The position numbers and the translations under genes were made by a program. From Haliotis asinina (lineage: Eukaryota; Mollusca; Gastropoda; Lepetellida; Haliotidae), in the NCBI RefSeq assembly GCF_037392515.1, contig NC_090281.1, positions 52,740,753 to 52,804,752 on the forward strand: a stretch of DNA of 64,000 bases, read 5' to 3'. The notes under the pieces are model-generated. The model ran no database searches. It saw only the letters and a program-made list of their open reading frames with translations, and was not told where the DNA came from. Positions 1 through 26,000 of this stretch are shown piece after piece (within the stretch, counting starts at the first letter, position 1; each line of letters opens with the position of its first letter).

Positions 1-2270
1 TCCTTCATGTAACAGGATCATCTATGTCCTTACTCTCCTTCATGTAACAGGAACACCTATGTCCTTACTTTCCTTCATGTAACAGGATCATCTATGTCCT
101 TACTTTCCTTCATGTAACAGGATCATCTATGTCCTTACTCTCCTTCATGTAACAGGATCATCTATGTCCTTACTTTCCTTCATGTAACAGGATCATCTAT
201 GTCCTTACTTTCCTTCATGTAACAGGATCATCTATGTCCTTACTTTCATTCATGTAACAGGATCATCTATGTCCTTACTTTCTGTCATGTAACAGGATCA
301 TCTATGTCCTTACTCTCCTTCATGTAACAGGATCATCTATGTCCTTACTCTCCTTCATGTAACAGGAACACCTATGTCCTTACTCTGCTTCATGTAACAG
401 GATCATCTATGTCCTTACTTTCCTTCATGTAACAGGATCATCTATGTCCTTACTCTCCTTCATGTAACAGGATCATCTATGTCCTTACTTTCCTTCATGT
501 AACAGGATCATCTATGTCCTTACTCTGCTTCATGTAACAGGATCATCTATGTCCTTACTTTCCTTCATGTAACAGGATCATCTATGTCCTTACTTTCCTT
601 CATGTAACAGGATCATCTATGTCCTTACTCTCCTTCATGTAACAGGATCATCTATGTCCTTACTTTCCTTCATGTAACAGGATCATCTATGTCCTTACTT
701 TCCTTCATGTAACAGGATCATCTATGTCCTTACTTTCCTTCATGTAACAGGAACACCTATGTCCTTACTCTCCTTCATGTAACAGGATCATCTATGTCCT
801 TACTTTCCTTCATGTAACAGGAACACCTATGTCCTTACTCTCCTTCATGTAACAGGATCATCTATGTCCTTACTTTCCTTCATGTAACAGGATCATCTAT
901 GTCCTTACTTTCCTTCATGTAACAGGATCATCTATGTCCTTACTTTCCTTCATGTAACAGGATCACCTATGTCCTTACTTTCATTCATGTAACAGGATCA
1001 CCTATGTCCTTACTTTCCTTCATGTAACAGGATCATCTATGTCCTTACTCTCCTTCATGTAACAGGATCATCTATGTCCTTACTCTCCTTCATGTAACAG
1101 GAACACCTATGTCCTTACTCTCCTTCATGTAACAGGATCATCTATGTCCTTACTTTCCTTCATGTAACAGGATCATCTATGTCCTTACTTTCCTTCATGT
1201 AACAGGATCATCTATGTCCTTACTCTCCTTCATGTAACAGGAACACCTATGTCCTTACTTTCCTTCATGTAACAGGATCATCTATGTCCTTACTTTCCTT
1301 CATGTAACAGGATCATCTATGTCCTTACTCTCCTTCATGTAACAGGATCATCTATGTCCTTACTTTCCTTCATGTAACAGGAACACCTATGTCCTTACTT
1401 TCCTTCATGTAACAGGATCATCTATGTCCTTACTTTCCTTCATGTAACAGGAACACCTATGTCCTTACTCTCCTTCATGTAACAGGATCATCTATGTCCT
1501 CACTCTCCTTCATGTAACAGGAACATCTATGTCCTTACTCTCCTTCATGTAACAGGATCATCTATGTCCTTACTTTCCTTCATGTAACAGGAACACCTAT
1601 GTCCTTACTCTCCTTCATGTAACAGGATCATCTATGTCCTTACTCTCCTTCATGTAACAGGATCATCTATGTCCTTACTCTCCTTCATGTAACAGGAACA
1701 CCTATGTCCTTACTCTCCTTCATGTAACAGGATCATCTATGTCCTTACTTTCCTTCATGTAACAGGAACACCTATGTCCTTACTCTCCTTCATGTAACAG
1801 GATCATCTATGTCCTTACTCTCCTTCATGTAACAGGATCATCTATGTCCTTACTCTCCTTCATGTAACAGGATCATCTATGTCCTTACTTTCCTTCATGT
1901 AACAGGATCATCTATGTCCTTACTCTCCTTCATGTAACAGGATCATCTATGTCCTTACTTTCCTTCATGTAACAGGATCATCTATGTCCTTACTTTCCTT
2001 CATGTAACAGGATCATCTATGTCCTTACTTTCCTTCATGTAACAGGATCATCTATGTCCTTACTTTCCTTCATGTAACAGGATCATCTATGTCCTTACTT
2101 TCCTTCATGTAACAGGATCATCTATGTCCTTACTTTCATTCATGTAACAGGATCATCTATGTCCTTACTCTCCTTCATGTAACAGGATCATCTATGTCCT
2201 TACTCTGCTTCATGTAACAGGATCATCTATGTCCTTACTCTCCTTCATGTAACAGGAACACCTATGTCCT
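1..2270. repeat. 35-bp minisatellite, about 65 copies, built from a 3' splice site
   Basis: A near-perfect tandem array of 35-bp units (12 units per 420 bases of sequence) that continues past the left window edge. Each unit holds a branch-point-like CTTAC, a pyrimidine run TCTCCTTC, the acceptor GTAACAG, then 8 bases reading GATCATCT or GAACACCT. The second form is identical to the first 8 bases of the exon at 2367, so the unit is a copy of that exon's 3' splice junction. Variation is mostly confined to a few sites (TTCC/CTCC/CTGC, ATCAT/ACACC). There are no unique spacers, so it is not a CRISPR array. It sits in the last intron of the gene ending at 2836. Confidence 0.97.
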
Positions 2271-2366
2271 TACTCTTTCCTCCACTGTAGCAGAAACACC
2301 TATGTCCTTCTCTCCTTCACTGTGACAGAAATACCTATGTCCTTACTCTCTCCTTCATTGTAACAG
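2271..2366 (+). other. Diverged exon-proximal repeat copies and the real 3' splice site
   Basis: The last three repeat copies before the exon differ from the array consensus: acceptor-like ends read GTAGCAG, GTGACAG and finally TTGTAACAG. The AG at 2365-2366 is the inferred functional acceptor because the open frame downstream starts here in a consistent phase. Copies next to the exon are more diverged than those further upstream, as expected if new copies are added and homogenised inside the array while the edge copy is held by selection. Confidence 0.7.
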
Positions 2367-2836
2367 GAACACCTCTCATCGTCAGCAATGCAGGGAAGGG
2401 TGGTCAGAACATCCAGGTGGTTCGGACTGTGTTGTCCCAGCAGGCTGGACTGAAGCCAGGGCAAGCCACCATCCTCATCTCGCAGCCCACCCTCCAGCAG
2501 AACCCAGCCACCATGATGTCCACATCCCAGGTCATCCACACCACCAAGTCCGTCCGCGGCTCACCCAAAGGCAAACCACAGCCAGTGTATGCTCGTATCA
2601 TTACACCACCACCAGGGATGAAGCTGACAAACGTGCCTCAAGGAACATCTGTCGGTGCCTCTGGTGTTAGTGTTATACAGACTGTAGGGAAACTTGTGAA
2701 CAGTGTGACAACAGCTACTGCACATCATCCTACGGTGACTACAGTGACAGTGGCCACCCCTCCATCAACACCATTAGCATCTGTGGACATCGGAGACGGA
2801 ACAGGAAAGACAGATTCAGGAGAAAGTAAACCTTAG
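2367..2836 (+). CDS. Last coding exon of a nuclear cofactor-like protein (upstream exons outside window)
   Basis: The open frame runs from the acceptor AG at 2365-2366 to the TAG stop at 2834-2836. Two bases (GA) complete a split codon, followed by 155 codons. The frame is therefore longer than the ATG-initiated part at 2417. The encoded tail is rich in Thr, Val, Ser, Gln and Pro with few charges: it begins TPLIVSNAGKGGQNIQVVRT, has a LISQPTLQQNP stretch and a basic VRGSPKGKPQPVYAR segment near the middle. This composition is typical of intrinsically disordered tails of transcription or chromatin cofactors. NFRKB (INO80 complex) is one candidate by feel only; I cannot confirm it. No catalytic domain is visible. 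The exon is GC-richer than its surroundings and lacks repeats, which supports real coding sequence. Confidence 0.75.
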
Positions 2837-4189
2837 GGTATGTTTAGGATCGACTATTCAGGCGTTGTAGTCTTCATCATCTACACAGACTACTGTTGTT
2901 TAACAACTCTCGGAACATCAATGATATTGTATGTGTCTGGTGTGCTTGTTCAGCAGAACATCTCCAGATTTGGAACAACTGGAGAGAATGTCTGAAAGAA
3001 CACTGAAATTGTTAATTTTGTTGGGAATTTCAATATTCAGTATCACTGTGTTAAAGAGAACAGAAAGTGTAATACATATTATCTAGCTGTTAGTTCAAGG
3101 AGATGCTGGTTCAATGCATGTACAGTCGTATCGGACATCGGGACAATTCCATATCTGCATTGTTAACAGGCAGAAATCATGAAAATCTAGGAGTGATCTG
3201 CATTGAAAACTAGGAATGATGTTCATGCAGTCGAATGAGATGAAGCAGTGTGAGCCTGGCTTGCCCGAGGTGTGTCATAATTGTGTTCAAGATGACACTG
3301 TCTCATGCCATTTGACTCAACTAGAATCACCCCTCTAAGTAATCACACCTATCACACGTAGACTTGTGGCTGTCATAACACTACATTTGCTTGTAGAATG
3401 GAACCAAGGGCTGCCTTCGTCTACATTTTCACATCTGCCAAACATAGACTTATGACTTTTGTAACAATATGACTGCTTTGTGGAATGGAACCCAGGGCAG
3501 CATTCCTATGTTTTCACAGCTACCATACATAGATTTACGACTGTCGTAACTCTATGATTGCGTTTTGGAACCAGGCTGAGGGTTGCATTCCAGTACGTAA
3601 TAACATTACATAGACTTCTGAACAGTGCTGTCTTAATTGTTTGAACAAACAGGGTGAACAGGGTGGTTCTAGACTTGCCCAACCCATATCTGTTGTTGTT
3701 GTGAATTGTACACATTATAAGCATTATTCACTGTTAAATTTCCTTTTTACTTTAAATTCCTATCTTGTTGTGGATTTTGTTGAGTGTTTTTGTTCAGTGA
3801 ATGCATCCTATTACGTAGGCTTCCTAACTTGTTGGTTGTTCTTGCTTCAGTTCATTGTATGTTCAGTATCCAGATTCTCAAAATTGGTGTGCCAAGTTAA
3901 GGGCTCCAGGCAGCTTACATACAAATACAAATGAAGATTGTGAAAACCACCAACACTCTGCCAAACTTACAAGTCCTATTTCACATGAATTTTGAAAGGT
4001 TTCTTTTAGTACTCAGTATAATATGACTGGCTGACAAGGCGGTTGGGTGTCTCTGTATAAAGGGGTTAATATTTTTGTAACAAAATATTTTTTGTGAAAT
4101 GCAGTTGTGTCCCGTTGATGTGTTTTCTCATACTGCATCGAGTATATCATGTTGCTTCATGTTATGTCAACTTACCACAGTGACAAACT
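2837..4189 (+). other. Probable 3' UTR of the gene ending at 2836
   Basis: AT-rich, with no open frame I would trust. It includes three degenerate 85-bp tandem copies (3359-3612). I found no clear AATAAA close to the stop, so the transcript end cannot be placed. Confidence 0.4.
3359..3612. repeat. Three degenerate tandem copies of about 85 bp
   Basis: Copies start with TAGACT or TAGATT at 3359, 3445 and 3530 and a fourth begins at 3611. Shared landmarks in each are GTAACA-like, GGAATGGAACC(C/A)AGGG and TTTTCACA. It lies in the presumed 3' UTR. Function unknown. Confidence 0.65.
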
Positions 4190-4412
4190 GTGAAGGTCTA
4201 GGTTAGAACTGATCTTCAGTAACCCATGCTTGTCGCAAGAGGCGACCAATGGGATCGGGTAGTCAGGTTCGCTAACTTTGTTAATGCATGTCATGTTATC
4301 CCAGATGTGTGGAACAATGATGTTGATCACTGTATTGTCTGGTCTAGACTCAATTATTTACAGACCACCACCATTTAGCTGGTACACTGCTGAGTGCGGC
4401 ATTAAACAACTA
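4190..4412 (+). repeat. SINE family 2, plus orientation
   Basis: Starts with the family head (GGTTAGAACTGATCTTCAG, AACCCATGCTTGTCGCAAGA, then GGGATCGGGTAGTCAGG), passes through TGATCACTGTATTGTCTGG and ends TTTAGCTGG and TGCTGAGTGCGGC. The same modules recur in full at 43883-44158. Confidence 0.85.
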
Positions 4413-6313
4413 CCATAACAGTGACAAATATAACATCTGATCAACAATATGACACATGAAAGATGTCTTCATACCATCTCTATGTATTAATCACAACATT
4501 CTCGTATGTGTGATGCCTGTATTGTACTATCAATGAAAACATACAGATATGGAAGATAAACAGGATACATTAAATGATTGCACGGGAGATTTTTCTTTAT
4601 CAGGGTCGTCATTTGTATTTGTACTTAAGTTATGGTGTATTAATTAGGTAGTGAGGATTTCTCTGAAAAACAATTTCGTCTTGGTTTACAAAACTCTCAC
4701 ATTTGCAAGAACGCAACAAACTAGGGCAGAAGTGTCTGCATGGTACTGAGGAGCTTGGAAACCGTGAAGCAGTTCTCCCTGAAAAGTCACTGGTCATATT
4801 AGGTAGTACTTCTTACGTGATAGTTGTGAAAATAGGAATGATAGGTCATAGTTCAGAGTGTTGGCCAAACTGGTACCATCATTTGTAACTTTGTGATGTT
4901 GAATACAAGCAAACTGATACTAAACTACTAACTTTCATTGTTTAGCAAGGATTAACAAATACCTAATGGCTGTGGATCCACAATGTGATCTTAGCACTAC
5001 AATGATAATAAGCTTAAGCATGGGAGTTATCACTAAGATGGCTTTGCTGCAAGTGGGCTCAGATCAGTTTTCTAAAGCACTGCCAGAAGAACTTGAACAT
5101 TTGGAACAACCATGCCTGAAACGTTTCATGGTTACAGTTAAAGCTTCTTTCTGTAAGTGGTCAACGTGATTTAGCTCCAAGAAACAATTTCACTCCCATG
5201 GAACCCTTCAAATGTTTTTGATGTTCATGTCCTGCAATGTAACTCGTGTGAATCAGGGGCTCCTTTCATGAAGAAACCTTTACCTTACCTCCCTTTATGT
5301 AACATTGCGCTAAGGTTACATTAGTGACTTATGATCACCTTAGTGCTTTGTGAAAGGAGCGCCAGGTAGTTCATTAGGACATGCAGTATATTGCGTTTTA
5401 CTTATGACGCTTATTCAGGAATCTGTAGTGTGTGAAGTGATTTGTGTGTGTGTTTGTATGTGTGTATCCATGTGTGTGTCTGTACATCTGTACGTGTTCT
5501 TACATGCCTGCTGGTTCAGGTGTTGAGTGTATCTGTGTTTAACCATCATCATTTGCAGAACCATCACTGATTATATGGCACGCATCTATAGAGGCACTTG
5601 CATGACGTTACAGAAATTTGTAAAGATCATTCGTTCAAGTAAATGCAATGACTTTCTGAAAATAATTTCTCTAACAGAACATTTACTGATTGGTCCCTAA
5701 TTTTTAAAGCATTTGATAATGGAAAAGATCCCTATAGGCTATACAGTAAAACTATTAATGTCTGGAAAACAAAATCATAATCTCCACCATCCTCTTCATC
5801 ATCATCAACCAGTCATTTAACATGTTTATGAGTCATGTTTTTCACACTTTCTGTTTCAGTGAAACAGTTGTCTATGGCTCTTGTTGTCAGTGTCATATAG
5901 ACTTCTATGAAGGATCACTTAGTTTCAGAGATCACTTTGTTCAACTTGTTCATTTAGTTGAATTTTGTATGCTGTTACGTATTATTTATGTTGAAGCCAC
6001 CTTGGCTTTCTGTGCTATAGTCTCTTTGTGTCTAATCCAGGGACTCGGGTGTTGTTGAGAGAACTATCACAGATGAATGCGTGAGTGAGTGAATGAGTTT
6101 CCACTCCAGTATAGTGAATGATATTAGCTCAGTTGTATATGCAGTAACTGAAGAAATTGTGTATTGTGATATATTGTAAATATGTACATTTTCCAAAACT
6201 CACTTTGAGTCTCTGCTGATGAGAAGTACTGACAATTGAAATATAATTTATTAGATATGTTGGTTTGTGTATTGTCTTTTGTTCTGTTTTTGTCACAGCA
6301 TGTGGAGCATGAA
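4413..6313. other. Intergenic or 3' UTR sequence without a recognisable gene
   Basis: AT-rich, with short open frames below chance-significant length, a foldback element at 5256-5364 and a TG-rich patch near 5443-5490. Confidence 0.5.
5256..5364. mobile_element. Small foldback element with CTCCTTTCA / TGAAAGGAG ends
   Basis: The ends form an inverted repeat (GGGGCTCCTTTCATGAAG against CTTTGTGAAAGGAGCGCC), with internal complementary stretches CTAAGGT and ACCTTAG. It belongs with the foldback elements at 33137-33281 and 37104-37194, which share the CAAAG-centred terminal design. No coding capacity. Confidence 0.55.
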
Positions 6314-6505
6314 ATTGGATTGATGACACCAGATAAAAATTGTGTCACTGGATTGGGGACAAGGCCAAATAGTGTCATTGGATTGATGACACCAGACCAA
6401 ATGGTGTCACTGGATTGATGACACCAGACCAAATGGTGTCACTGGATTGATGACACCAGGCCAAATGGTGTCACTGGATTGATGACACCAGGCCAAATGG
6501 TGTTG
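6314..6505. repeat. 32-bp minisatellite, about 6 copies
   Basis: The unit contains GGATTGATGACACCAG(A/G)CC and AAATGGTGTCACT; the phase is exact at 6381, 6413 and 6445, with degenerate copies at both ends. It reads open across several units on both strands, but the period is not a multiple of three, so this is a repeat artefact. No exon boundary is recognised beside it. Confidence 0.85.
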
Positions 6506-7777
6506 ATGGACTGGTTTGCCACCAGATGAAATGATGACAATGGACTGTCATCCACAAAATGGAGATCTGACAACCTTATCCCATGACCTTTATCAATAAC
6601 AACAAATATCATGCAATTTTTGCAAAGGATTTATATATAAATGGTAAACAAACAAGCACGTTGAGCAAGATATCACCTCTGGACTTGATTCTATGTACAG
6701 TATTGCTTCATGTTTTGTACATCATGTCAAGGATGGAACATTTAACCACATATAATATGAGGTTTTCTTTGATCTACAAATGTAAAAAAAATGTTTCTCA
6801 AAATACTTTCTAGACACTATTATCAACATGATCAATATGGAAAATTAGTTGGTTTTTCAATACACAGGTGATAAGAAAACATGATCAAAGGTGATTAACA
6901 CATTATGCACAATAGAAATGTTTAGAGACTAAGCACTTGGGCAATGTGATATTAACGATTGTTTCCATCTACACGCAGGTATGAAGTGAAGCACCTTCAG
7001 GTAGAAGTGTGGTCAAACATGGAGATTTTAAAAATAAGTAACTGAAGAAAGCCCTAAGATACATATTATTTTGCCTCAAACATTCTCTTCCCACAGAGGG
7101 TACTTGTCATACCTTCCTATAAACCTCTTGTACGGCCATATTTCTTGGTTTTCATAAAATCCCCCAGCGGCAAAAAATTACAAGACAAATTATCTCCCTT
7201 CTTTCTTTCCAATCAGAATGTGTTACTAATACAAGCAAATGTGAGGCAATAGAGTTCTCCCAAGGGACTGCTGTTGATGCGACATAGAAGACATTTAATG
7301 GTTAACTTGTCCATTCTTAATCATGACAATGGAGATGCCATTGATCCGCCATTACATGACTGAGTTCTGTCTAAAACAGCATCGCTGTGGTGAAGAGGTT
7401 CTTGTTTTCTTGAAGCATACGGAAATTATCGAGGCCTTACGAATGATCACTTTTGAAACGTCACTGATTGTACAACTAAATCTTATTGCAACTAATCATT
7501 AATCCTGAACACTTGCACACTGAAAGGGCCGTATTAGAACAGAGGTTGTTAGAAGTACCTTCTGTGGGAGGAGAATGTGCCTCCAGTTGAAACAAACATT
7601 TTAGATCTCACTAGCTTTGGGTTATAAGAAACAATTCAAATATTCAAAATTTAAATGGATGGCTTTGAAATTCATTTAATTATTTACTCATGAAAGGGAA
7701 GAATCTATTATGTTAAGATTGTGCGTCCACTACTATTAATGCGTGAATTTAGCCGTAGAGACGAATGAAGGAAATGG
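6506..7777. other. Intergenic, no gene seen
   Basis: AT-rich sequence with no coding signal on either strand. It may include the 3' UTR of the minus-strand Ly6 gene that stops at 8177. Confidence 0.5.
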
Positions 7778-8052
7778 ATGGTCAAACTATTGTACTTGAT
7801 TGATGCAGTGTGCAACCAAGTTTAGCTGTACACCGCACTCTCCAATATTCCCGCTATGTGGTGGCGGTCTGTAAATGATCATGTCTGGAACAGACAATAC
7901 AGCAATCAACAGCATGAGCATCAATCTGCGCAACTGGGATATGATGAAGTGTCAATCAGGTCAGTGAGTGTGGCCATCTGATACCGTTAGACACCACTTA
8001 CGACAAGCATCGGTTGCTGAAGACTGATTCTAACCCATATCTTCATGGGTTC
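7778..8052 (-). repeat. SINE family 2, minus orientation
   Basis: Reverse-complement order of the family modules: CCGCACTC and CAATATTCC, then GGTGGCGGTCTGTAAATGAT, CAGCATGAGCATCAATCTG, GGTTGCTGAAGA and the head at the right end. It lies 125 bases beyond the stop of the Ly6 gene, probably within its 3' UTR. Confidence 0.85.
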
Positions 8053-8176
8053 CACAATCAACAGACTGAAGACATGAAACTGATCACACTCAATTTCAGT
8101 TGAAAATGAAGATTAAAAGCTTCCGATGATTTGGTGGGTTATCCCCAGTATTATTTCTTGTGAAAAGAAAATCAAT

Positions 8177-8373
8177 TCACAATGACAAGTATATTGCCAT
8201 GATACCAGTGACCGTCAACCATGATGCAATGAGGCTGTTGCCGTGGTTACAGTAGTTGGAGTTACATGCACATCGAGTTGTTTTAATGCCGTTGTACATT
8301 ACATCATTAGCACAGCCTTCCGTCATCTGGGCCCCACACACTCGGTAAACCTCCACATTCCGAACAGATCCGG
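8177..8373 (-). CDS. Ly6 gene exon 3 (third finger and GPI signal)
   Basis: The acceptor is ATCTTCAG; two bases complete a Ser codon, then 64 codons to TGA. It carries five cysteines, ending CACNSNYCN, and a hydrophobic tail of about 19 residues. No Asn-X-Ser/Thr glycosylation site is evident in this exon. Confidence 0.82.
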
Positions 8374-11300: not shown

Positions 11301-12097
11301 ATCTTAAGTTCATCTTAACTGATTAAAAACAAAGGTAGCACTTCATAATCTTGACTCTAACTTGAATCTGTTTCAATAATTTAGTGTTTAGATACTGATT
11401 TTGCCAACATTGACACTGTACATCAGTCATGATGTTTAATGAACCGTTTCTTTCTTCTTCTGCAGACCTGAAACATACGTTGATTCGAAGTTCTAGGATG
11501 TTCAAAGAAGACGTATAATTCCAGATGAAACATTTTTCCTCTGGAAAGCACTGTGCTGATAGAAAAGACTATTAATATATTTGTGGTTCAACAACATTTA
11601 CTTAAAATAGTTTGGTACTTGAAATAAATAGGTGTGACGTTTTTTTCACAAAAATGGAAATGTGGACATTTCTCAGAGTTGACAGTAGTTGACTTGATCA
11701 CCTTGTTGATCAAGAACGGATGGACAGAATTTAATCAGGTAAAGTTTGTTGCAATGCTGATGTATCAACAAACCTTGGCAAAATAGTTTTAAAAATCTGA
11801 ACCGTTGATCTAAAAATGGTGTGGACTTGCTACTAAGAGGAGTAGCTCAGTGCTGTTTGTTCACGCCGCACTCAGCAATATTCTAGCTATATATTCCAGC
11901 AACTCCGAAACTTTGAGTTAAACTTTCTGGGACTGTCAGATTGTCCCATACCTGGATGTGGTTAACTCTTCAATTTGACTCAACGCCATAAGTTACAAGA
12001 TGTTAACAAAATATATTTATTTTAACACCAACTCACCTGATGAAATTAGACAAAGGCTAATAACGAAGAGGCCGATATGATATTCCGTCTTCGCCAT
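8177..12097 (-). CDS. Ly6/uPAR three-finger protein, secreted and probably GPI-anchored (3 exons)
   Basis: Coding exons, reading leftwards, are 12097-12037, 9829-9704 and 8373-8177, joined in matching phase into 127 residues. Residues 1-23 form a signal peptide. Ten cysteines (27, 30, 37, 50, 54, 75, 83, 97, 99, 104) follow: an opening CYTC, a closing CACNSNYCN and the spacing typical of the Ly6/uPAR fold. Residues 109-127 are hydrophobic to the end, as in GPI-attachment signals. All three donors/acceptors match consensus (GTGAGT, TTTCAG, GTAAGT, CTTCAG). Known members act as extracellular or membrane-tethered modulators of channels, receptors or cell contacts; the invertebrate Quiver/Sleepless group is the closest in style, but the target is unknown here. 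It lies about 1 kb from, and divergent to, the gene at 13895. It contains no residues suggesting a venom role. Confidence 0.82.
8781..9287. mobile_element. MULE-like MITE, 507 bp, long TIRs, 9-bp target duplication
   Basis: The left arm 8781-8877 and the right arm ending at 9287 are inverted copies of about 97 bp, differing by a few substitutions and one 3-base gap. Both outer ends read CATCCT inwards. The element is flanked by identical 9-bp copies of TGGTAATAT (8772-8780 and 9288-9296). A 9-bp duplication with TIRs of about 100 bp fits the Mutator-like superfamily. The interior has no coding capacity, with mirrored CCAATCA / TGATTGG motifs near the arms. It lies in intron 2 of the Ly6 gene. 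Confidence 0.85.
9300..9457. mobile_element. Palindromic Tc1/mariner-type MITE, 158 bp, TA flanks
   Basis: Begins CTGTGGGAAAAAATAAGG and ends CCTTATTTTTTTCCCCTCAG. The complementarity continues to the centre, so the whole element folds as one hairpin with arms of about 75 bases. TA dinucleotides flank it (9298-9299 and 9458-9459). It starts 13 bases beyond the MULE-like MITE. No coding capacity. Confidence 0.75.
9704..9829 (-). CDS. Ly6 gene exon 2 (first two fingers)
   Basis: The acceptor is CTTGTTTCAG, then two bases finishing the split codon and 41 codons starting KSTFICYTCLYPDKGCG, with five cysteines. The donor GTAAGT follows TGG T. Reading past this donor gives a stop soon after. Confidence 0.82.
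9901..11835. other. Ly6 intron 1, no further gene seen
   Basis: AT-rich intron sequence with a short hairpin at about 10248-10283 (ATGTCATG repeats facing CATGACAT). The overlapping open frames around 10325-10685 have no splice context or recognisable domain. Confidence 0.5.
11836..11905 (-). repeat. SINE family 2 fragment
   Basis: Carries the reverse complement of the shared SINE tail (CACGCCGCACTCAGCAATAT, TCTAGCTATAT) and then breaks off. Confidence 0.65.
12037..12097 (-). CDS. Ly6 gene exon 1 (signal peptide)
   Basis: Begins ATG GCG AAG at 12097 and encodes MAKTEYHIGLFVISLCLISS, a classic signal peptide, then one base of a split codon. The donor reads TCAG then GTGAGT on the minus strand. 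Too short for ORF finding. Confidence 0.78.
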
Positions 12098-13894: not shown

Positions 13895-14096
13895 ATGTCT
13901 CTGGCATTAATAGACCTTGAGATGGAGAGCCACGTGAGCGATACTGAAAGCACCAGAAAGAAACCTAAAGTGTCACCTTTAGGGTTCAAAACCACAACTG
14001 ATATCATTGAACACGCCAGCCTCAGGGGTCATTGCCACATGGATCTCAAAACAGTCAAGGCTGAGAATAAGGATCAAAACAAGGACCAAGTAAATG
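13895..14096 (+). CDS. Orphan gene coding exon A
   Basis: Sixty-seven codons from ATG plus one base; the donor is AATG then GTAAGT. An acceptor at 13887-13888 lies just before the ATG, so the exon may start at 13889 with a 6-base leader. If an upstream coding exon exists, the frame VNMSL would continue. Confidence 0.65.
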
Positions 14097-17000
14097 GTAA
14101 GTGGCATCAGCTATTTCCAGAGTATCCCAGATGAAGCCTTTGTAATCTCAAGAATTATAGGAAACAGCCACAATCACATGGAACGGACTAAAATCGTCCT
14201 CCAGCGAACCATATCAGCCATAAGAGACAAATGAAGGTAACGGGTTGTGAAACTATCGTGCTTGATTGATGCAGTGAGTGAACTTAGTTTTACGCTACAC
14301 TCAGCAATTTTTCATCTATATGGCGGCGGTCTGTAAATAATCGACCAGACAATCTAGTGATCAACAGCATGAGCATTGAGAACCGATGATGTGTCAATCA
14401 AGTCAGCGAGCCTGACCACCCGATCCCGTTAGTCGCCTCTTATGACAAGCATAGTCGCCTTTTGTGGCATGCATGGGTTGCTGAAGATCTATTCTACCCC
14501 GGATCTTCACGGGTCACGGATGCAAGTCATCGTACCCCAAGCGACGGTGCTCATGGTATCAATGGCTATGGTGCCAAGTCCAAACTTGTCTGTTTACTGA
14601 CAGCCGTCACTGAGTTGGATTATTGCTAAATGGCGTTATACAACAAGCCATGAAACAGACAGTAATATCAGATCTAGTTCAAAGAAAATATTTTTCATTG
14701 TTTTGTGTCATAAAAGCACACGAACAATATTAATAAAACCTTATCTCCTAATAGGGATTAACAACGCCAAAGAGAAGAGAAAATGCAAGAAGGTAAAAGA
14801 TGCACAGAAGACAAAGAATGCAAAATATGCAAAGAAGGCGAAAGATGCCCAGAAGGAAAAGGATGCAAAGAAGGCAAACGATGCACAGAAGGAAAGGGAT
14901 GCAAAGAAGGCAAAAGATGCACAGAAGGAAAAGGATGCAAAGAAGGGGAAAAAGCGAGACACGGAAAAGGTGGTGAAGGACGCCAAGTGGGGAACCCTCT
15001 GCCGTGTCCTACAAGTAAGGCCACGTCAAACTAGGCTTCTGTTTGTGGCAATCACCGCTTCCCTTTTGGGTACACACAATTTAGTTGGATGATGATTGTA
15101 CGAAGAGACGTTAATGCTCTACAAACCGTTCCCTGTTAAATCAACAAACTCTCACCGACTCCATATGTCGGTATGTAGATAACACATAGCTAAACAATAC
15201 GCATATAAGATGAATGCCACAATCGGTTCCATTAGGCTATATCGCCGTTCCAAAGGCACGGAATGTCAAGTCACAAGAATAAAAATTCTAAATTTCTCAG
15301 TTCAGTATTATGTATGGCCGCCCCGTGCACTCACCACTGCCAAATTCCGTCTCCTCATCGACTGCCTGATGTTTGTGAACACTTGGTTGGGGATTCTGCG
15401 TCATTGCTCTTGCAAGGCAACGCCAAGTTCCTGCAAATTCTGAGGTTGGTTCCCAAGACCACGAAGCAGTGAATCCCACATGTGCTCTATTGGATTAAGG
15501 TCAGGGGACCTCAATGGCCAGTCCATCACGTTGATTTCAGCGTTTTGAAGGAAATTTCGTGTCAACATCGCGGTATGCGGCCGAGCATTATCATGCTGGA
15601 ACTGTAGACCTGGGCCATGAGCCGCCATGAAAGGAACGAGTTCAGGGGTGAGCAGTTGGTCGCGGTAAGCAGCAGGTGCGAGGTTTCCACGGATGACCTG
15701 AAGTCGGGAACGGTTGTTCCCACAGAAAGCACCCCACACCATGCAACTTACACCCCCGAACCTGTCGACTTCCTATACACAACATTTTGCATACCGTTCA
15801 CGACGTCGTCCGCGATTCCTGTCTCTCTGGGTCCATCGGAGGTGACGTTGGGCCCACAGCAGACGTTGACGTTGATGAAACGGCGTCAATATTGGCCCAC
15901 AATATAGACGTCGAGAATGGAGATTGGCAACCTACAACCGATTTCGAATGGTCTGTGAGGACAGTCGACCTCTAAACATCTCGACCCTGGTTCGTGTAGC
16001 CAGCAGAAATCTGTCACGTAGGTGACGTAGCACGATTTGACGGTCGCCTGCTCGTGACGTCACACGTGGACGACCCGACCTTGGGCGATCAGAGGTGGAG
16101 TCAGTTTGTTGTAGACGACCTCGCAAGTCATACACAGTACGACGGCTGCATCCCATTGTTCTTGCGACGTCAATAACTGATTTCCCGCTTGCAACATGCC
16201 AACGGCACGTTCACGTTGTACATTTGACAATCGTGGCATTTAAAGTACCGTTAGAACTGTGGTTGAAAAAAATTGGCACAATTCTTGAGGCCAATGCAAA
16301 CACGTACACATGAAGAAAACTTCGATGCAAAGATCACATGATCGATTGCACGTGCAAACCCTGATTTGGCACTAACGTCATTTGCACGACGAATGGATGG
16401 GTTTGAGTGGGTTTTGCTAACGTTTTTCTAGAGTCGGAAGATAGGGATCCCATTTCGGATACACAGATGTCTAGATAATAGAGAAAAATTATTCATTATT
16501 TTTTAAAATTACATTTTGTGAAGTTTCTATTTTGACTCAGTATATTACCTATGAAGTGTAATATACATCACAAATATTTTCACTTTCACAAACCCGTCGA
16601 ACTTTTAAGCTCTGTTGACATTGGCGTCACCTTCCGCAGGCAGTTAGCAAGCCATTTTTTTTGTGTAAGCGCGATTTTATTCAGATAGTATTGAGGGCTT
16701 TTCCAACCCTTTTAGCAGCAATCATGTGAAACCTGGGCTTTTTTCATATTGTTAGCAGATCCGGAAGCTAGAGGCTCAGGTGATTGCTGGAATACACCGT
16801 ATTCCATTGCACGAGATGCTTTTCGTCATTTGCCATTACTACATCCCTGTATCGGCAACTCCAAATTCTCACATAAGTGATAAACGTGTATGGTAGCCGT
16901 TGTATGTTTCCAGGAATCACCTCCTAACAGGTGTGATTTTTGTGCAGGCGTTAACGCTATGGGGACCTGCCACGTTCACGTCTCCACTCAACTGTGATGA

Positions 17001-17509
17001 CTTCGGGTGCGACGACATCAGTTTTGATGGTAAGCGTTCAGGATATCAGAGTATTAGCTCTGTAGAAGTATTCTAGAAATGTGTTCAGAAAACAATTTTT
17101 ATGAGTAGTCTAACTGACAAACATACGAAGTCCCTACGAGATACACCTTGAGTTTTGAGTGAATAGGAGTCAGGTTACAACGTAAATACAATTTCATGAA
17201 CTGTTTTAGCTCTGTTCACTTACGCCCCTCGTTATACCACCTTGACGTGTTCATATCACACGTGAGTTTCTATCACCTCTTTAGTAAACTCTTCTGTTCA
17301 GGTCACCTGTTCCACTACTCTCCTTAATATACTGCATCTTCTGTTTAGGTCACCTGTTTGAATACGCCTCTCGCCCCCCTGTCATCCCAAAGGTTGACGT
17401 TCCCCGTCTCCGCCTGCGGCCGACGCTCAAGGAGAGACTTTACAACATCGCCCACAACATTTTCCGATGTGGATCAATGAAACAAAACAACCAATATACA
17501 TTGGATTAG
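13895..17509 (+). CDS. Unrecognised Lys-rich repeat protein, 234 residues (4 coding exons)
   Basis: Coding exons are 13895-14096, 14755-15014, 16948-17029 and 17349-17509. Phases agree (1, 0, 1) and every junction has GT-AG. Residues 1-68 are mixed and polar. Residues 69-154 are strongly basic, with 12-residue repeats of the type KDAQKEKDAKKA, probably helical. Residues 155-181 are acidic (CDDFGCDDISFD). Residues 183-234 are basic and Pro-rich, then helical, ending NNQYTLD. There is no signal peptide, membrane segment or known domain that I recognise, so the function is unknown. A lysine-repeat protein with a CRE in its presumed promoter could be germline-expressed, but that is speculation. 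The gene is divergent from the Ly6 gene. Confidence 0.65.
14240..14513 (-). repeat. SINE family 2, minus orientation, in orphan gene intron
   Basis: Modules in reverse order: TTTACGCTACACTCAGCAAT, GGCGGCGGTCTGTAAATAAT, CAGCATGAGCATTGAG, GATCCCGTTAGTCGCC, GGGTTGCTGAAGATC and the head GATCTTCACGGGTC. Confidence 0.88.
14755..15014 (+). CDS. Orphan gene coding exon B with Lys-rich repeats
   Basis: The acceptor is CTCCTAATAG; the exon ends CAA followed by GTAAGG. Eighty-six codons follow the split Gly. The coding strand is almost entirely purine plus GCA/GCC codons, giving many GAA/AAG motifs that usually act as exonic splicing enhancers. Open frames on the other frames and strand are shadows of the 36-bp repeat. 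Confidence 0.7.
14829..14960. repeat. 36-bp coding minisatellite in exon B
   Basis: About 3.5 tandem units encoding 12-residue blocks (KDAQKEKDAKKA, NDAQKERDAKKA, KDAQKEKDAKKG). The period is a multiple of three, so copy-number change keeps the frame. Confidence 0.85.
15302..16239 (-). pseudogene. Broken Tc1/mariner (IS630-family) transposase
   Basis: Read leftwards from ATG at 16239-16237. An N-terminal HTH region (GCSRRTVYDLRGRLQQT, then RPRSGRPRVTS), the DDE-domain motif HDNARPHTA and the C-terminal motif SPDLNPIEHMWD are evident. A frameshift separates the first 20 residues from the HTH. The stretch that normally carries the first catalytic Asp (DESRF) is deleted between RWTQRD and RRRERYA. 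A TGA replaces Trp in EQWRRIP near 15400, and another stop lies at the end (RGGHT then stop). It cannot encode an active enzyme. It lies antisense in intron 2 of the orphan gene. Confidence 0.9.
16240..16947. other. Remainder of orphan gene intron 2
   Basis: No gene or recognised repeat; AT-rich intron sequence leading to the acceptor at 16947. Confidence 0.5.
16948..17029 (+). CDS. Orphan gene coding exon C
   Basis: The acceptor is TTTTTGTGCAG; there are 27 codons (starting ALTLWGPATF) and one base; the donor is GATG then GTAAGC. Two cysteines sit in an acidic stretch. Confidence 0.65.
17291..17358 (+). repeat. Two-copy tandem duplication of a 3' splice site (47-bp step)
   Basis: CTTCTGTTCAG followed by GTCACCTGTT at 17291-17311 recurs as CTTCTGTTTAG followed by GTCACCTGTT at 17338-17358, 20 of 21 identical. 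The second copy is the real acceptor plus the first bases of exon D. Use of the first would add 47 bases, shift the frame and hit TAA after eight codons. Confidence 0.85.
17349..17509 (+). CDS. Orphan gene last coding exon D
   Basis: The acceptor is TTCTGTTTAG at 17347-17348. Two bases finish Gly, then 52 codons to TAG at 17507-17509 with many Pro, Arg and Leu. A near-identical copy of its acceptor lies 47 bases upstream. Confidence 0.68.
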
Positions 17510-18168
17510 AACCGGGTCATTTGTTCTTGTTGTTTTCCCTAGTACCACGTTACAATATGATGGTGACCTGGCTGAGTGTATGTTACAGTACCCCAGCAGC
17601 GTGGATGGGTGGTCATACTATCAATCACTAATTTCCTGTCCCAGGCAGCCGCGAAACTGCTGGAACATGTCTGACTGCGGCGTCAAACAACACTCACTCG
17701 TATTGTTACTGTATAGTTTTGAAGTTAGATTTGTAAATTGTATTTAGACCTATGGATTATGTACGCTAAGGCATCAGTACCTTGTTAAAGATGAAAAAAA
17801 ATGTCACTTTAATATATTGTAAAGTCATTTTTAAGAATTTATGTTTAACAATATTCTTTATAATGCGACATGAGTAAATGCTTCCTCCGAACTTTTTTCT
17901 GATTATTGTGTTTATGATAGACCAGTCCATCCAGGAATGTTATGATGGGGTCTCTTATGTTGATAGATATTGATAATAAGTTTCATCATTGGTGCTAGTG
18001 AGGGACAAGCGGATTATTTATTATCTCCTTGGTTATAAATCTGCCTTTATGAAGGCTGAAAATCTACATGAATTTTGTCTTGCGTTCTGTTTTCCATCGT
18101 AAGTGTTTCAAATCAACCAACCAGTGAGTTGATCAGTTCCAATACTGTTGTAGTTAATATAATGTATA

Positions 18169-18170
<2 letters not shown>

Positions 18171-18209
<39 letters not shown>
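18171..18209. repeat. (GT)n microsatellite
   Basis: Nineteen uninterrupted GT repeats. Confidence 0.98.
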
Positions 18210-18211
<2 letters not shown>

Positions 18212-18250
18212 ATAGTGATTAATATTAATTGAAGGACCTAACACACCTAT

Positions 18251-18280
18251 ACGCACACGCACGCACGCACACACACACAC

Positions 18281-18360
<80 letters not shown>
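18251..18360. repeat. (AC)n-(AT)5-(GT)35 compound microsatellite
   Basis: CGCACG/ACAC repeats pass through five AT units into thirty-five GT units. The AC and GT arms are complementary around the AT centre, so the segment can fold as a hairpin. Open frames coding for Cys-Val repeats here are artefacts. Confidence 0.95.
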
Positions 18361-18362
<2 letters not shown>

Positions 18363-18408
18363 TAAAAACATATAGACGACAAAACCGAAGAAAATTTATT
18401 AATGTATT

Positions 18409-18490
18409 AACGATCCTTACTATTATGAGGACTATAACGATCCTTACTATTATGAGGGCTATAACGATCCTTACTATTATGAGGGCTATA
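18409..18490. repeat. 27-bp tandem repeat, 3 copies
   Basis: The unit is AACGATCCTTACTATTATGA plus 7 bases (GGRCTAT). The three copies are nearly identical. Confidence 0.9.
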
Positions 18491-18587
18491 AGTCTCCCTA
18501 CACAGTCTGACCATTAAGGGTTCCGTACTATTCGTGGCATTGTTCAATGTAGTCTACATCTACTCAATGTTCCAACGGACCTGTAAA

Positions 18588-18885
18588 GATCCGAGTTTGA
18601 ATTGGTCTTCAACAACCCATGGTTGTCTTCAGGGGCGATTTACAGGATCAGGTGGTCAGGCCCGCTAGCCTGGTTGACACATGTCATCGTATCCTATTGC
18701 ACAGATCGATGCTCCTACTGTTGATCACTGGTTTGTCTAGTCCACACTCGATTACTTACTTATCCCCATCTATTTACACAAAATACAGTGCGTGTATTTT
18801 TCAGCAGAGCTATCGTTCTTGTCAAATTAGCAATCACTAGTTTGTCGCCATATAGCTTTCTCTGAGTGAGGCGTTAAACAGCAAG
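18588..18885 (+). repeat. SINE family 2, plus orientation, with internal insertion
   Basis: The head (GAATTGGTCTTCAACAACCC), GATCAGGTGGTCAGGCCCGC and TGATCACTGG modules are present. About 60 unrelated bases interrupt it before CCATATAGCTTT and GAGGCGTTAAAC. Confidence 0.8.
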
Positions 18886-19150
18886 CAAGACCATCAACAT
18901 GCTGATCAGAACTAATGAATCGAAAAACGATACTGCAATACGCTAGGCTATCTTAAGTGATAAAAAAAACACTCCCATTCAGGGAATTGTGAAATGTGAT
19001 AACAATGCCAAAATGAAATGTGGTACTACAAGGAAATACATAACAATATTTGGAAAGGAACCAACCAAATGTAACGGATATAAAGACAACCATTCTTATT
19101 TCGTTTCCTAGCTTCAGAAACGTTCACCAGAAAAATGAAACATACCATTC

Positions 19151-19236
19151 AAGGGCAGATAACTCTAATATTCCCTAACAGCTGATAGGGATATTGATCG
19201 AGTCATTGACAACTCGACTGTTCACGTCCCGGACAG
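19151..19236 (+). other. Putative NUDT6 5' UTR exon
   Basis: A strong donor, GGACAG then GTAAGA, has its GT at 19237-19238; the acceptor TTTTGTCAG at 19821 lies 17 bases before the NUDT6 ATG. The pair predicts a 585-bp 5' UTR intron. The start of the exon is not determined. Confidence 0.45.
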
Positions 19237-19838
19237 GTAAGAAGACGACATATTCACGAGCAGTATTTTAGTTACAGAACAAGGAGGTAATTAGTCGTAT
19301 TTTGTTAAAACTCAAATTAAGCAATAACAACACGACAACGAAAACCTTCCGAGTTGCATAACCACCTGTACGTACCATACAAGGATCGCAATTGTCGTCT
19401 GCTACTGACGTCTCCAAAGTTTGAATCAATGGAAAATATGGTTGAATGCAACCCTCATCTTTAGTTGCATGCCACTGTATTCAGAAAGATCCCTAGAAAG
19501 AGGTGACACTTAATGGTTAGACGATGACCCTATATATTATATTGTATTTAATTTTGGGTCTTTTAGTTGTTTTTGCGAGTTCTCTAGTGATTGCTGTGTA
19601 ATGGTTTGTGGGCCCTGGTTTGTTAATAATTTTAGGATATATTAATTTATAAGTGTTATTTGGGATTGGGGATCCAGATCCCAATAATTCAGTCGCAAAA
19701 CATTGCCAATCATCTCCAACGTTAGTCAATATTCACTGTGGAATATTTCAGTAAGATCTTGAATCAAATTAAACAAGACTGTTATGCATTCCAGTGTCAC
19801 TACCTGTTTGTCTTTTGTCAGCATTCACTGTTTGGAAG

Positions 19839-20028
19839 ATGGCACTGTGTAAGACAGCTGGCATGCATGTCCTAAGATGTATGAGATGTCGGCTGCCATT
19901 GTTGACGTCAGTCAGGCGAGGAGTTACTAGTCTGGAATATGAGAAGGATCAACACAATGGTGTGACTGTCAACCTTGCCCAGCTTCCATCCAACACAACA
20001 GAGAAACAATTCCACACACAACTAAAAG
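19839..20028 (+). CDS. NUDT6: NUDT6 coding exon 1
   Basis: ATG at 19839-19841 is chosen because the in-frame codons upstream lie beyond the acceptor-like TTTTGTCAG at 19821 and contain no other ATG. Sixty-three codons plus G; the donor is AAAAG then GTACTG, weaker than average. Encodes the basic N-terminus and NGVTVNLAQLPSNTT. Confidence 0.85.
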
Positions 20029-23000
20029 GTACTGAACAGTTCCCCATACAAACTTGAAAGTACCATAGGACTTAAAGATACACCACGGTTGGGTGGTTGT
20101 TTGTTTGTTTAACACCATGCCAAGTAGTATCACTGCTATATGGTGACTGTCTGTTAATAATCTAGTCTTGGCCAGACAATCCAGTGATCAACATCATTAG
20201 CATCAATTTATACAACTGGGATATGATGACAAGTGTCAACCATATCCGCAAGCCTGAAGGGCACAAAATGTTGTTAGTTTCATATGCATAAATTTTGCTG
20301 TCAGGAAAATTCCATGTTATATTAAAGTGGCCACAAAATATAGCTGTTGATGACATGGGCAAGGATGACACGATGCCAAGGCATCAGTTTGTGCATTGTA
20401 ACATGGACACAGTTGCTTGCCTGTAGTATTGTCAAAATTAAAATCATATTCTTGTTAAAGCGCCTGCTGTCCTGTAACATTACCAACATATTGTTGGAGC
20501 ATCTTTAGTCCTGGGGTGTTATTGCTATATTATTACATGAAGTGCCTACATACCTGGGTTGTTACTGCTATGTTATTACACAGAGTGCCTACAGACATGG
20601 GGTGTTATTGCTATGTTATTACACACAGTGCCTACGGACAGGATGTTGCTGCTGTATTATTTCAAACAGTGGCCTACAGAGCTGGGATGCTCCTGCTATA
20701 TTATTACACAGAGAACGAATTGTATTTTTTTTCTAAGATGATGTATTTAATAATTTCTAAGCCTAATTTCTATTAATCTATGGCAGAAAACAAACGACGG
20801 TGTCTGTGACCTGAATTAAGAATCCTCGCACAGGGCTAACTGATGCGCTGTTCTTTTGACGTGTCAGCCCCCTACGTTAAGACAAACGTTACTAGAAAAA
20901 CAAATGATGAACAGTTTGGTGAAAGTTTATGTTCAGGTTAAATATCTTCTCTAGATCATTTTAATTTCATCTGTGATTCTCTTAAACCATACAAGGCAAA
21001 ATGACCGTCTCATTTCTACTACCAACGAAAGTTTAGATCAGTACATTTAGCTGAAGCTGACTAGTCATGCAACATTCCACGATTGCATTGTGGGAATGTA
21101 AACATTGCAAACATGAACGTGTCTCTGTAAAGTTTTGAGTTGAACTATGAGGCATTTTATCCTTCTGAAAACATAAACATAATGTTTCCACTGGTGATGT
21201 TAGCTGTGTGATGCAGCTGCAAACCGAAAAACGGGCATCAGTTTACTGTGGGAGTCTGTACGAGGGGATGGCAACTGACATCCATTGTGACGTTGGTTAC
21301 ATTGTGACGTAATGCAAAAAAGTTCGATTACGAGGGGGCAGACTGAAATGGCGCAGCGACGTCAACACATTGTGATGTAATGCAAAAAGTGTACATTATG
21401 GTGCGATAAAGTATTGTCGGTGCCTTTGATCTTTCACCGAAGCATCTTAGAAATTACTACAGAGTGCCTACAGACTTGGGGTGTTATTGCTATATTATTA
21501 CACAGAGTGCCTGCAAATCTGGGATGCTCCTGCTATATTATTAGACAGTGTGCCTACAGACCTGGGATGTTACTGCTGTATTACTACACAGAGTGCCTAC
21601 AGAGCTGGTATGTTACTGCTATGTGACTACACAGAGCGCCTACACAGAGTGCCGTGGGGTGTTATTGCTATATTGTTACACAGAGTGCCTACAGACATGA
21701 GGTGTTACTGCTATATTATTACACAGAGTGCCTACAGAGATAGGATGCTCCTGCTGCATCATTACACAGAGTGCCTACAGACTTGGGATGTTACTGCTAT
21801 GTTACTACACAGAGTGCCCTCAGACGTGGGGTGTTACTGCTATATTATTACACAGAGTGCCTGCAGACCTGGGGTGTTATTGCTATATTGTTACACAGAG
21901 TGCCTACAGACATGAGGTGTTACTGCTAAATTATTTCACACAGTGCCTACAGAGCTGGGATGCTCCTGCTACATAATTACACAGAGTGCCTACAGACATG
22001 AGGTGTTGGTGCTATATTATTACACAGAGTGCCTACAGAGTTGGAATGCTCCTGCTACATTATTACTCAGTGCGCCTGCAGGCCTGTGGTGCTATTGCTA
22101 TATTATTACACACAGTGTCTACAGACTTTGGGTGCTACTGCTATGTTATTACACGGAAGGGCCTACAGAGCTGGGATGCTCCTGCTGTATTATTACACAA
22201 AGAGCCTGCGGACCTTGCGTGTTACTGCTATATTATTACTCACAGTGCCTACAGACCTGGCGTGCTACTGCTGTATTATTACACAGAGTGCCTGCAGGCC
22301 TGAGGTGTTATTGCTATATTATTACACACTGTGCCTGCAAATCTGGGATGCTCCTGCTATATTATTAGACAGAGTGCCTACAAACTTGGGGTGTTAATGC
22401 TATATTACTACACAGAGTGCCTACAGACTTTGGGTGTTGCTGCTATATTATTACACAGAGTGCCTACAGAGCTGGGATGTTACTGCCATATTACTACACA
22501 GAGTGCCTACAGAGCTGGGATGTTGTTGCTATGTTACTACACTGAGTGCCTACAGATATGGGATGTTACTGAAATATTATTACACATTATTGCTCTATCA
22601 TTACACAGAGTGCCTTTGCTATATCATTACACAGAGTGCCTGCAGTCCTGGCAAGCGGAAGATAGGTCAGCAGTATGGCTGCAGGTGCCTCTCACACACA
22701 GTCGACTGATTGCTGCTGCAGTAGAACACGGCTTCACATTTCACCATGCAGAGGGGGACAAGGCCATGCTGAAACTGTGGCTCCACCCATCCCAGTCTGA
22801 CAGAACACCTCGGTTTGCTACCCACCAAATTGGAGCTTCAGGTATCTCCAATAGTACACAGGGATATTCCAAAGGTTGCAGTATTCCAGAAGACCTCATT
22901 TTCTCTGTGTGCGTGTGCGTGTGCGTGTGCGCGTGCGCGTGCGCGTGCGCGTGCGTGTGCGCACGCCTTTTAGGAATATTGCACCAATATCACTGCTGGG

Positions 23001-26000
23001 GACACCAGAAAAGGTTTTGTATAATTTTTCATAATTTCTGGTGACCAGAGTGAAAAAAGACCATGCTTTTCACTCCATATGTAAGAATGGTTTTCACATA
23101 AAATGTTTTTTGAGTTAGTAGACTTGTAAAAGTTTCAAAAGAAGTACTGTTAAAAGTTTACTTGTTTTATCTATTTTAATCAGGTCTCAACCTCTTATGT
23201 AGATATGTGAGTAAAATGGAGAACTTTATATGTTTTTCAAATGGGTTTCTTAGAAATATCATATATCATGTGTGTTAACTCTTTACTTCAGGGTTTGTTG
23301 TCAGAGAAGATCTTGAACAGGTGCTAGTCATAAAAGACAAAAACAGCAAAGTAAGTAATAAAAGTTAATATATAAAGAAAAATATTGCACTGCTAGTGAT
23401 ATATTGTGCTCAAAGTATTGCACATGCTAAATCAGTGCTCATGAAATGACTTGAGCAAAGACTTTAACATCAAGGGGAGTCAAATCTTAGGACACTTATG
23501 TTCATGGTAATGCTAAAAGGGGCTTGAGTCATTGTCAGTTTTTGTTGCTGCCAATTATTGTTTAATAACAATTAATTAAGAGTATAATTTTCCTTTTCTG
23601 AATGATTAATGCAAAAGTAGTTTGATTTGATGTATTAAGTAGACTAATTGATAAATCAAAAATCAGTATATTACTATTTCTTGTTTGGTGCAAGATGTTT
23701 AGGCAATAACAGTTCTGTTACACCATTTACTGATATTTGTCAAACAAACAGTTTATGTGGAGCTCGGTAGGTGATAACTCTAATGGGAAAATAGTTCTTT
23801 AGGCTGGTTGCCTTTGTTTGACTTCTTGCTACTGTTGAATGTGGACTGGTGTCAAACTTTTACAGTAACATGTTCTCAGAAAGCTTGTAGTAGCCAGCGC
23901 AACTACTACTTACATGCTGGTTTTATCCATTTAATTTAATCAATCATAGATGAAGTGTTCAGGCAATCAAAGCAAGTTTTCTTTGTCATTGTGGCTTGTT
24001 GTCTAAAACCTAAAACTGAAAAATAAACATGCTGAAATGTGTCATCATAGTTTTTTTTTTCCATTTTGAAACTTTTATGTTAAATTGTACTTAGTTCAAG
24101 TGAAGTGGTAAGTCAAGTTAATTTTATTTGAGACAGGAAGAACAGTCTTTAACTGTTAACTCAAATCTTATGTGTTTGAAAGTGGCATTCAGAAGTTATA
24201 CATCTAATACAGAGACAGTGGGAATGTTCACACAGGTAATACCAGTAGTTAATAAATCTTGACTAAGACGGGCACTAGATTATATATAGATTATGGTTTG
24301 TTGTGCAAGGTGATGACTAGGATTGATTGGTTAGACGGCGTGACTGATACTTTTTGATGCATTGTATTCCAATCATATGCATTGATGCTCATTGCATCTA
24401 TCACTGGATTGTCAGGCCTTGACATGGTAAGTGTGACCACAATATACAGACTGCCACCACATAGCTGGAAATATATAAACAACATTCAAAGTCCTACTGA
24501 AAACGTTGATTTGCTGGTTTGCGGTCTATGGTTGCACTCAGCAATATTCCAGTTATACAGTGGTGGTCTGTAATTAACCAAATGTGGACCAGACATTCCA
24601 GTGAGTAACATCATGAGCACTGATCTATGTCATTAGGACACAAAGACATGTGCAACCATGTCAGCAAGCCTGGCCACCCAATCCCATTTGTTGCCTCTTA
24701 CAACAAGCATTGGTGACTAAAGACCTGTTCTAACTAAGATCTTTGTGTGGAAAACAGCAAGGATCTAGGATAAGGTCAAAATGAGTGAAGCTCCAGTAAA
24801 ATAAGTCTAATGCCTGTTTTTCCTTGTGATTTTCTGACCCTGTTGCTCTTTTCAGTTCAATTTGTGGAAATTCCCTGGCGGGTTGTCAGATCTAGGAGAG
24901 GATATAGGTAGGTACATTATTCACTCTAGGGTGAGGTTATAGGGAGGTACATATTCACTCTACTGTGAGGATATAGGTAGGTACATATTCACTCTAGGGT
25001 GAGGATATAGGTGGGTACATTATTCGCTCTAGGGTGAGGATATAGGTGGGTACATTATTGACTTGAGGGGGAGGATATCAGTAAGTACATTATTCACTCT
25101 AGGATGAGGATATAGGTAGGTACATTATTCACTCTAGGGTGAGGTTATAGGGAGGTACATATTCACTCTACTGTGAGGATATAGGTAGGTACATATTCAC
25201 TCTAGGGTGAGGATATAGGTGGGTACATTATTTGCTCTAGGGTGAGGATATAGGTGGGGAGGATATCAGTAAGTACATTATTCACTCTAGGATGAGGATA
25301 TAGGTAGGTACATTATTCACTCTAGGGTGAGGTTATAGGGAGGTACATATTCACTCTACTGTGAGGATATAGGTAGGTACATATTCACTCTAGGGTGAGG
25401 ATATAGGTGGGTACATTATTCACTCTAGTGGGGAAATTGGTAGGCACATTCTTGACTTGAGGGGGAGGATATCAGTAATTACATTATCCACTTTAGAGGA
25501 GGAAACAGATATGTACATCATTTACTCTAGGGGAGAATACATTCAGGTACAATATTCACCCTAGGGGAGGATATAGGTACGTACAGCATTTAGTCTAGGG
25601 TGAGGATATAGGTAGGTACATTATTCACTCTAGGGGAGTATATAGGAAAGTACATTATTCACTCTAGGGGAGTATATAGGAAAGTACATTATTCACTCTA
25701 GGGGAGGAACTGTGTAGGAGAAACCACGACTACAAGGGTTTCCGACTCTCAGGGTTCACAATCTCTTGTAAACCTTAGTGGGAGTCTTTATCTGCGGAAT
25801 GCATATGCTCTGCACACGCTACCCTTGAGAGAGAATGGGTTGCCGGTTTGAAACCAGGTATATTGGAACTTTCTGATAATGTGATATTTTACTAACAGTG
25901 ATAGCAAGACAAAGTTATTTCAAAACCTAGACTTAGAAATTGTCAGTGCAAAGTCACATTTCAGGGATTTCAATACACTTCCCATGGATTTACAATTCAC

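Follow-up and report, generated by a model that had tools for sequence, protein, structure and literature searches.

Tandem repeats that span exon-intron boundaries have been named mirages in amphioxus, where they were described at Adh3 (units of 10-72 bp) and at the globin genes BflGb6 and BflGb9. The sections of that report used here present length instability and a model of intron gain, and reverse transcription PCR of the Adh3 and globin transcripts is said there to show regular splicing undisturbed (PMC3087553). Mirages were also described at PGBD5, in a paper that, in the part used here, cites troponin C as well (PMC3902484). Tandem duplication has further been linked to intron gain: according to extracts of the respective papers, an intron of the potato RdRp gene was gained by a duplication crossing an intron-exon boundary on the acceptor side (PMC4974935), and Drosophila introns arose from tandem duplication (PMC2891723). 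A polymorphic 27-bp minisatellite, 62 units as drawn, lies in intron 3 of an abalone TSSK1-like gene, as an excerpt of that study reports (PMC6905558). Here we describe copied exon edges at NFRKB, NUDT6 and a third gene (gene 2) of the abalone Haliotis asinina, in a window (the whole stretch analysed) of 64,000 nucleotides at positions 52740753-52804752 of contig C2, in the 1.143 Gb assembly used for genome search. A sequence-only reading of this window had noticed such copies at four introns and knew of no named class for them; the amphioxus mirages, as the available parts of the two reports (PMC3087553, PMC3902484) describe them, are such a class. We consider it very probable that the abalone repeats are mirage-type arrays, formed by local tandem duplications across exon edges and tolerated because the exon-most copy is intact.

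Tandem Repeats Finder (TRF) reported arrays at three splice junctions of the window. The first, at positions 1-2368, has a 35-bp unit of 27 intronic and 8 exonic bases and abuts the acceptor junction 2366|2367 of NFRKB. Its intronic part (1-2366, plus strand) extends leftward to -2842; with the DNA left of the window included, the whole array covers 5.2 kb (-2842 to 2368) and has 148.7 copies. The second, with a 43-bp unit of 26 intronic and 17 exonic bases, abuts the acceptor junction 22634|22635 of NUDT6 exon 2 and was reported in two pieces, 20510-20710 and 21453-22641. Both lie on the plus strand, the distal part (20510-20710) holding 4.7 copies and the intronic part next to the exon covering 21453-22634. 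They are divided by an insert unrelated to the array (20711-21452), with 14-nucleotide inverted repeats at 20748-20761 and 21446-21459; with these repeats near its ends, this insert of about 740 bp is perhaps a short DNA transposon. The third is a donor array on the plus strand (24891-25708) at junction 24907|24908 of NUDT6 exon 4, with a 34-bp unit of about 17 exonic and 17 intronic bases. Here the last 17 exonic bases start a block of 190-208 bp, which is repeated three times with hardly any change in its first part. At the acceptor 17348 of gene 2, a duplication on the plus strand (17290-17358) comprises two copies only and is not a TRF array. It includes 10 exonic bases and a 22-base core repeated at an offset of 47, in which 21 of 22 bases are identical, a level reached by none of 5000 shuffles and none of 1344 background block pairs.

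To characterize the copied junctions, each edge copy was aligned with one chosen inner copy, giving matches across the junction at 35 of 38 (35-bp array), 33 of 35 (43-bp array) and 42 of 43 columns (34-bp array). The exonic homology ended sharply, at +8, +17 and -17, respectively, and this exonic breakpoint was shared by the copies within one array. The units of the three large arrays scored 49-87 against their own exon edge and 9-19 against the other 13 edges. In the 35-bp array, the pair of inner copies closest to the exon escaped homogenisation, and in the 34-bp array the edge copy took part in the block duplication. These repeats thus display mirage traits, namely a tandem minisatellite-like repeat, a unit spanning the exon-intron boundary with exonic bases, and occurrence on donor and acceptor sides. 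An Rfam scan gave no match at gathering scores. The four exon-edge copies listed earlier, with their 8, 17, 17 and 10 exonic bases, were borne out by the analysis. Their description as four tandem repeats of 2 to about 65 copies needs amending: three are TRF arrays, the lower end of the range belongs to the two-copy duplication, and the upper end is exceeded by the NFRKB array once it is followed beyond the window start.

Fourteen junctions were assigned in the window by joining exons at consensus splice sites, 10 in NUDT6, one in NFRKB and three in gene 2. The six NUDT6 exons, on the plus strand from 19839 to 60554, splice into a complete protein of 296 amino acids. Exon 1 (19839-20028) begins at an assumed start codon; exons 2 (22635-22841), 3 (23292-23350), 5 (32971-33018) and 6, the last (60220-60554), are based on the spliced reading frame and a PDB match; and the 3' codons of exon 4 (24856-24907) read ...LGEDI(G). 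The product matched Pfam Nudix_hydro and NUDIX, as well as PDB entries 3h95 (NUDT6, E 9e-61), 3fxt (NUDT6) and 4zb3 (Nudix hydrolase 7), the NUDT6 chains being presumably human and the Nudix hydrolase 7 chain presumably from a plant. With these protein matches and the complete frame, junctions 22634 and 24907 rest on homology and frame, and wrong exon calls were rejected for NUDT6. On the same strand, positions 2367-2836 are presumed to be the last exon of NFRKB from strand, position and coding signal. Upstream on this strand, the pieces L004 and L003 contain exons for winged-helix domains of NFRKB (Pfam PF14465, PF25793), and the open frame of 2367-2836 has a codon signal of 0.128 bits per codon, above the 99.9% point of the intron null (-0.082). 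The searches run on this exon gave no direct homology. Gene 2 has two putative plus-strand exons with consensus splice sites, exon A (16948-17029) and a putative last exon, exon B (17349-17509). The coding signal of exon A is weak, below the 95% point of the intron null, and that of exon B is just above it; neither exon matched Pfam or PDB.

The direction of copying was assessed for the NUDT6 arrays. In the donor array the exonic bases are codons for LGEDI, which lines up with EDI in 3h95 and with GEDI in 4zb3, while those of the acceptor array encode CLQSW, with identical Q and W in 3fxt and L and W in 4zb3. Since the copied exonic bases align with protein relatives, the exon sequence predates the array. 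Judged from these alignments, the NUDT6 junctions were copied from exon into intron, the case being strong for the donor and less so for the acceptor.

We then considered what the inner sites would do if used. For exon 4 of NUDT6, splicing from any of the 22 inner donor positions would bring translation to a stop at residue 181. For exon 2, an early stop would follow from 28 of 30 inner acceptor positions, the other two being in frame. Because inner sites would add stops, the edge copy must serve in most NUDT6 transcripts, if protein is made. For the same reason, extra copies should persist only within the intron. The consistent polarity emphasized in the sequence-only reading, with the functional copy at the exon edge and the others in the intron, follows from these frame consequences as a near-necessary outcome. 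We infer that a local tandem duplication, by slippage or unequal exchange, may arise with breakpoints on either side of an exon edge, and that the duplicated edge may then be amplified into an array. Selection on protein and reading frame would keep the exon-most copy, whereas the further copies would be intronic, spliced out with the intron and neutral, drifting and homogenising as any minisatellite.

A second copy of the left part of the window and the preceding DNA was found within C2:49371113-49441112, 3.3 Mb away, with 98-99% identity over the aligned parts and some rearrangement (pieces L005-L009, L019 and L020). It may represent a segmental duplication (paralogous block) or an unmerged haplotype. 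The NFRKB acceptor array has 148.7 units in the window copy versus 17.7 in the second copy, the NUDT6 donor array has 23.4 versus 28.4, and the NUDT6 acceptor array has an equal unit number in both. The earlier proposal that the arrays are stages of one process is plausible, and more so given such different lengths of the NFRKB array in two near-identical copies of one locus.

Exon-edge copies also recurred beyond the four loci. A search for kinesin motor domains elsewhere in the genome gave at least 128 exon-by-exon matches, with 122 of 226 candidates scored, and the first 100 of the 128 in listing order, each with 350 flanking bases, formed a sample from one gene family. TRF arrays straddled a match edge in seven of the 100. 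One is an acceptor case, L053 (106-bp unit), and joins the acceptors 2366, 17348 and 22634 of the window; six are donor cases like 24907, namely L066 (105-bp unit), L069 (71-bp), L085 (35-bp), L096 (35-41-bp), L098 (43-bp) and L109 (146-bp). Sequence and translation placed the splice site inside all seven arrays, which hold 27-82 exonic bases, and the boundary core was repeated at no fewer than 17 of 24 positions in six of them. Several of the copied stretches fall within what we take to be familiar kinesin motifs. Five further loci (L035, L044, L061, L110 and L122), with arrays near the edge but no copy of it, were left uncounted. At L085, where the unit includes 34 exonic bases and the array occupies locus positions 440-832, nine inner copies of the donor boundary match at 21-24 of 24 positions; an intron may have grown or been gained here via tandem duplication.

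Several observations weigh against the proposal of tolerated, mirage-type duplication. One of the two in-frame inner acceptors of NUDT6 exon 2, 219 nucleotides upstream, keeps its AG, the other does not, and a NUDT6 isoform longer by 73 residues is therefore possible. Use of the edge copy in mRNA is itself deduced from frame consequences. Because the second copy could be either paralogous or an unmerged haplotype, the difference in array length is not proven to be allelic. At kinesin L066, the array crosses the boundary, though no inner copy reaches 17 of 24 at the boundary core. Finally, the gene 2 exons on which the 17348 site depends are weakly supported.

We also asked how often arrays would meet exon edges by chance. 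Ordinary minisatellites may simply be seeded randomly in a repeat-rich genome, straddling some edges by accident in a window picked by eye. Consistent with this, 43 merged arrays occur in 194 kb, and a chance of about 0.6% per edge, taken over an assumed 300000-400000 edges, would give about 2000 chance straddlers. At the position level there was no excess at edges either: local repeats were present at 10 of 200 kinesin edges versus 23 of 200 flank positions at a distance of 180 bp. Of these 23, 6 belong to the bodies of straddling arrays. Within the window, an edge copy matching at 15 or more of 16 bases within 250 bp was found for 4 of the 14 assigned junctions versus 2.9% of 1500 random positions (3000-61000). 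Random placement of 11 arrays against the 14 junctions gave a mean of 0.06 straddling where three were observed (P(>=3) = 1.5e-5, 200000 trials); both of these tests are post hoc, the window having been picked. The independent kinesin sample argues against random seeding by its event-level counts. The straddling rate was 3.5% over at most 200 edges (95% interval 1.4-7.1%), this number of edges being an upper bound because some loci overlap and some match ends are not exon edges. With arrays as dense as in the flanks (17 arrays) or the 194 kb context (39 arrays), 1.3 straddlers were expected (P ~0.0003); L118 is the same array as L098 and was therefore excluded from the null. Harsher nulls gave 1.9-2.6 expected (P 0.003-0.018), the harshest (2.6, P 0.018) using the straddlers' own long units and counting the straddlers as background. 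On balance, we rate random seeding at slightly less than an even chance.

A second possibility is that exon edges are true mutational hot spots at which duplication starts more often, for example through chromatin, R-loops or splicing-coupled repair. The seven kinesin straddlers exceed the expectation under each of these nulls and, with the post hoc reservation, 3 of 11 arrays straddled a junction in the window. However, the position-level comparison runs in the opposite direction to the event-level excess, with local repeats rarer at edges than at flank points, the sample comes from a single gene family with some loci overlapping, and the units of the straddling arrays are longer, as expected from size bias alone. 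These data point to a common process whose preference for exon edges is suggestive but unproven, and the excess over chance anticipated earlier stands in this limited sense for array events and not for positions. We therefore regard a hot spot as a credible but somewhat improbable explanation, and we are more doubtful still that edges are such hot spots across this genome, with mirage arrays at several per cent of all of them, far above random seeding. If they were, successive stages would be on view in this lineage, beginning with a single splice-site duplication and leading on to giant arrays, isoforms and new introns.

Decoy splice sites that titrate or proofread splicing were among the outcomes raised earlier, and the inner copies might be kept by selection for such a role. 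Many inner copies do retain the dinucleotide: AG in 65 of 65 in the 35-bp array (1-2275) and 22 of 30 in the 43-bp array, and GT in 15 of 22 in the 34-bp array. Conservation of the splice columns was compared with that of the other columns of the unit. Splice columns were not kept better than the others in the more diverged 43-bp (0.93 and 0.77 versus 0.85) and 34-bp (0.91 and 0.73 versus 0.82) arrays, and the 35-bp array, with AG columns at 1.0 versus 0.97 for the rest, is too uniform to be informative. Decoys maintained by selection are thus very unlikely. An origin of the arrays as mobile elements or introners that brought splice sites and created exon edges on arrival, as splice signals carried by repeats at junctions might suggest, was rejected as extremely unlikely: the units of eight arrays form no single dispersed family and lack clear mutual similarity (pairwise scores of 8-18, versus 49-87 for each of the three exon-edge arrays with its own edge, the only one it matches), and the exonic parts of the NUDT6 arrays encode positions aligned to distant relatives.

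Other repeats and elements were noted in and around the window. Three arrays upstream of it (-13962, -11110 and -8927) do not reach the NFRKB exon matches there, judged by coordinates only. A nearly palindromic 32-bp tandem unit (TGACACCAGACCAAATGGTGTCA) at 6316-6503 has the same copy number in both region copies. A piece of a transposase with a DDE_3 domain lies on the minus strand at 15401-15772, beside a minus-strand reading frame (15932-16210) that looks like its putative helix-turn-helix part. A perfect TTCG repeat of 8.8 copies was reported by TRF at 43567-43601, and long minisatellites are dense to the right of the window (86181-123519, pieces L012-L014 and L022), with 41 bp x 64, 48 bp x 54, 72 bp x 42 and 25 bp x 33. 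Sequence that we take to be a short interspersed element (SINE)-like repeat scattered in abalone genomes occurs at 4226-4420, 18590-18780 and 24400-24760.

Among the papers listed by our literature search, none dealt with repeats called mirages in organisms other than cephalochordates, although this does not prove their absence, and the available portions of two further papers (PMC4039745, PMC3152781) contain nothing on copied exon edges. In the parts of the literature covered here, mirages have so far been single-gene curiosities of amphioxus; seven cases among 100 kinesin matches suggest instead a widespread source of splice-site copies. They also provide enough cases to test intron gain via tandem duplication and how well the cell tolerates dozens of near-identical splice sites next to a single exon. 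The human boundary tandem repeats in segmental duplications are, like those described here, minisatellites with units of about 30 bp at boundaries that alter gene structure but, as far as the extract describes them, they are transcript-defined, lie in recent paralogues and have about four units on average (PMC2812944). The abalone TSSK1-like minisatellite is likewise intronic, tens of units long and length-polymorphic, although a copied exon edge is not reported in the excerpt (PMC6905558). As in the potato and Drosophila cases, judged from extracts of both papers, tandem duplication provides ready splice signals (PMC4974935, PMC2891723), whereas here an existing intron grows, kinesin L085 coming nearest to that model. 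Closest are the amphioxus mirages, which in the published sections used here likewise vary in copy number, have an edge copy continuous with the exon and retain AG or GT in many of the inner copies. The BflGb6 haplotypes described there have 6 and 3 units, compared with up to 148.7 copies in the abalone. The class is therefore already named and, as far as our searches go, what the abalone adds to it is another animal, the size of the arrays and an estimate of their frequency, counted across one gene family.

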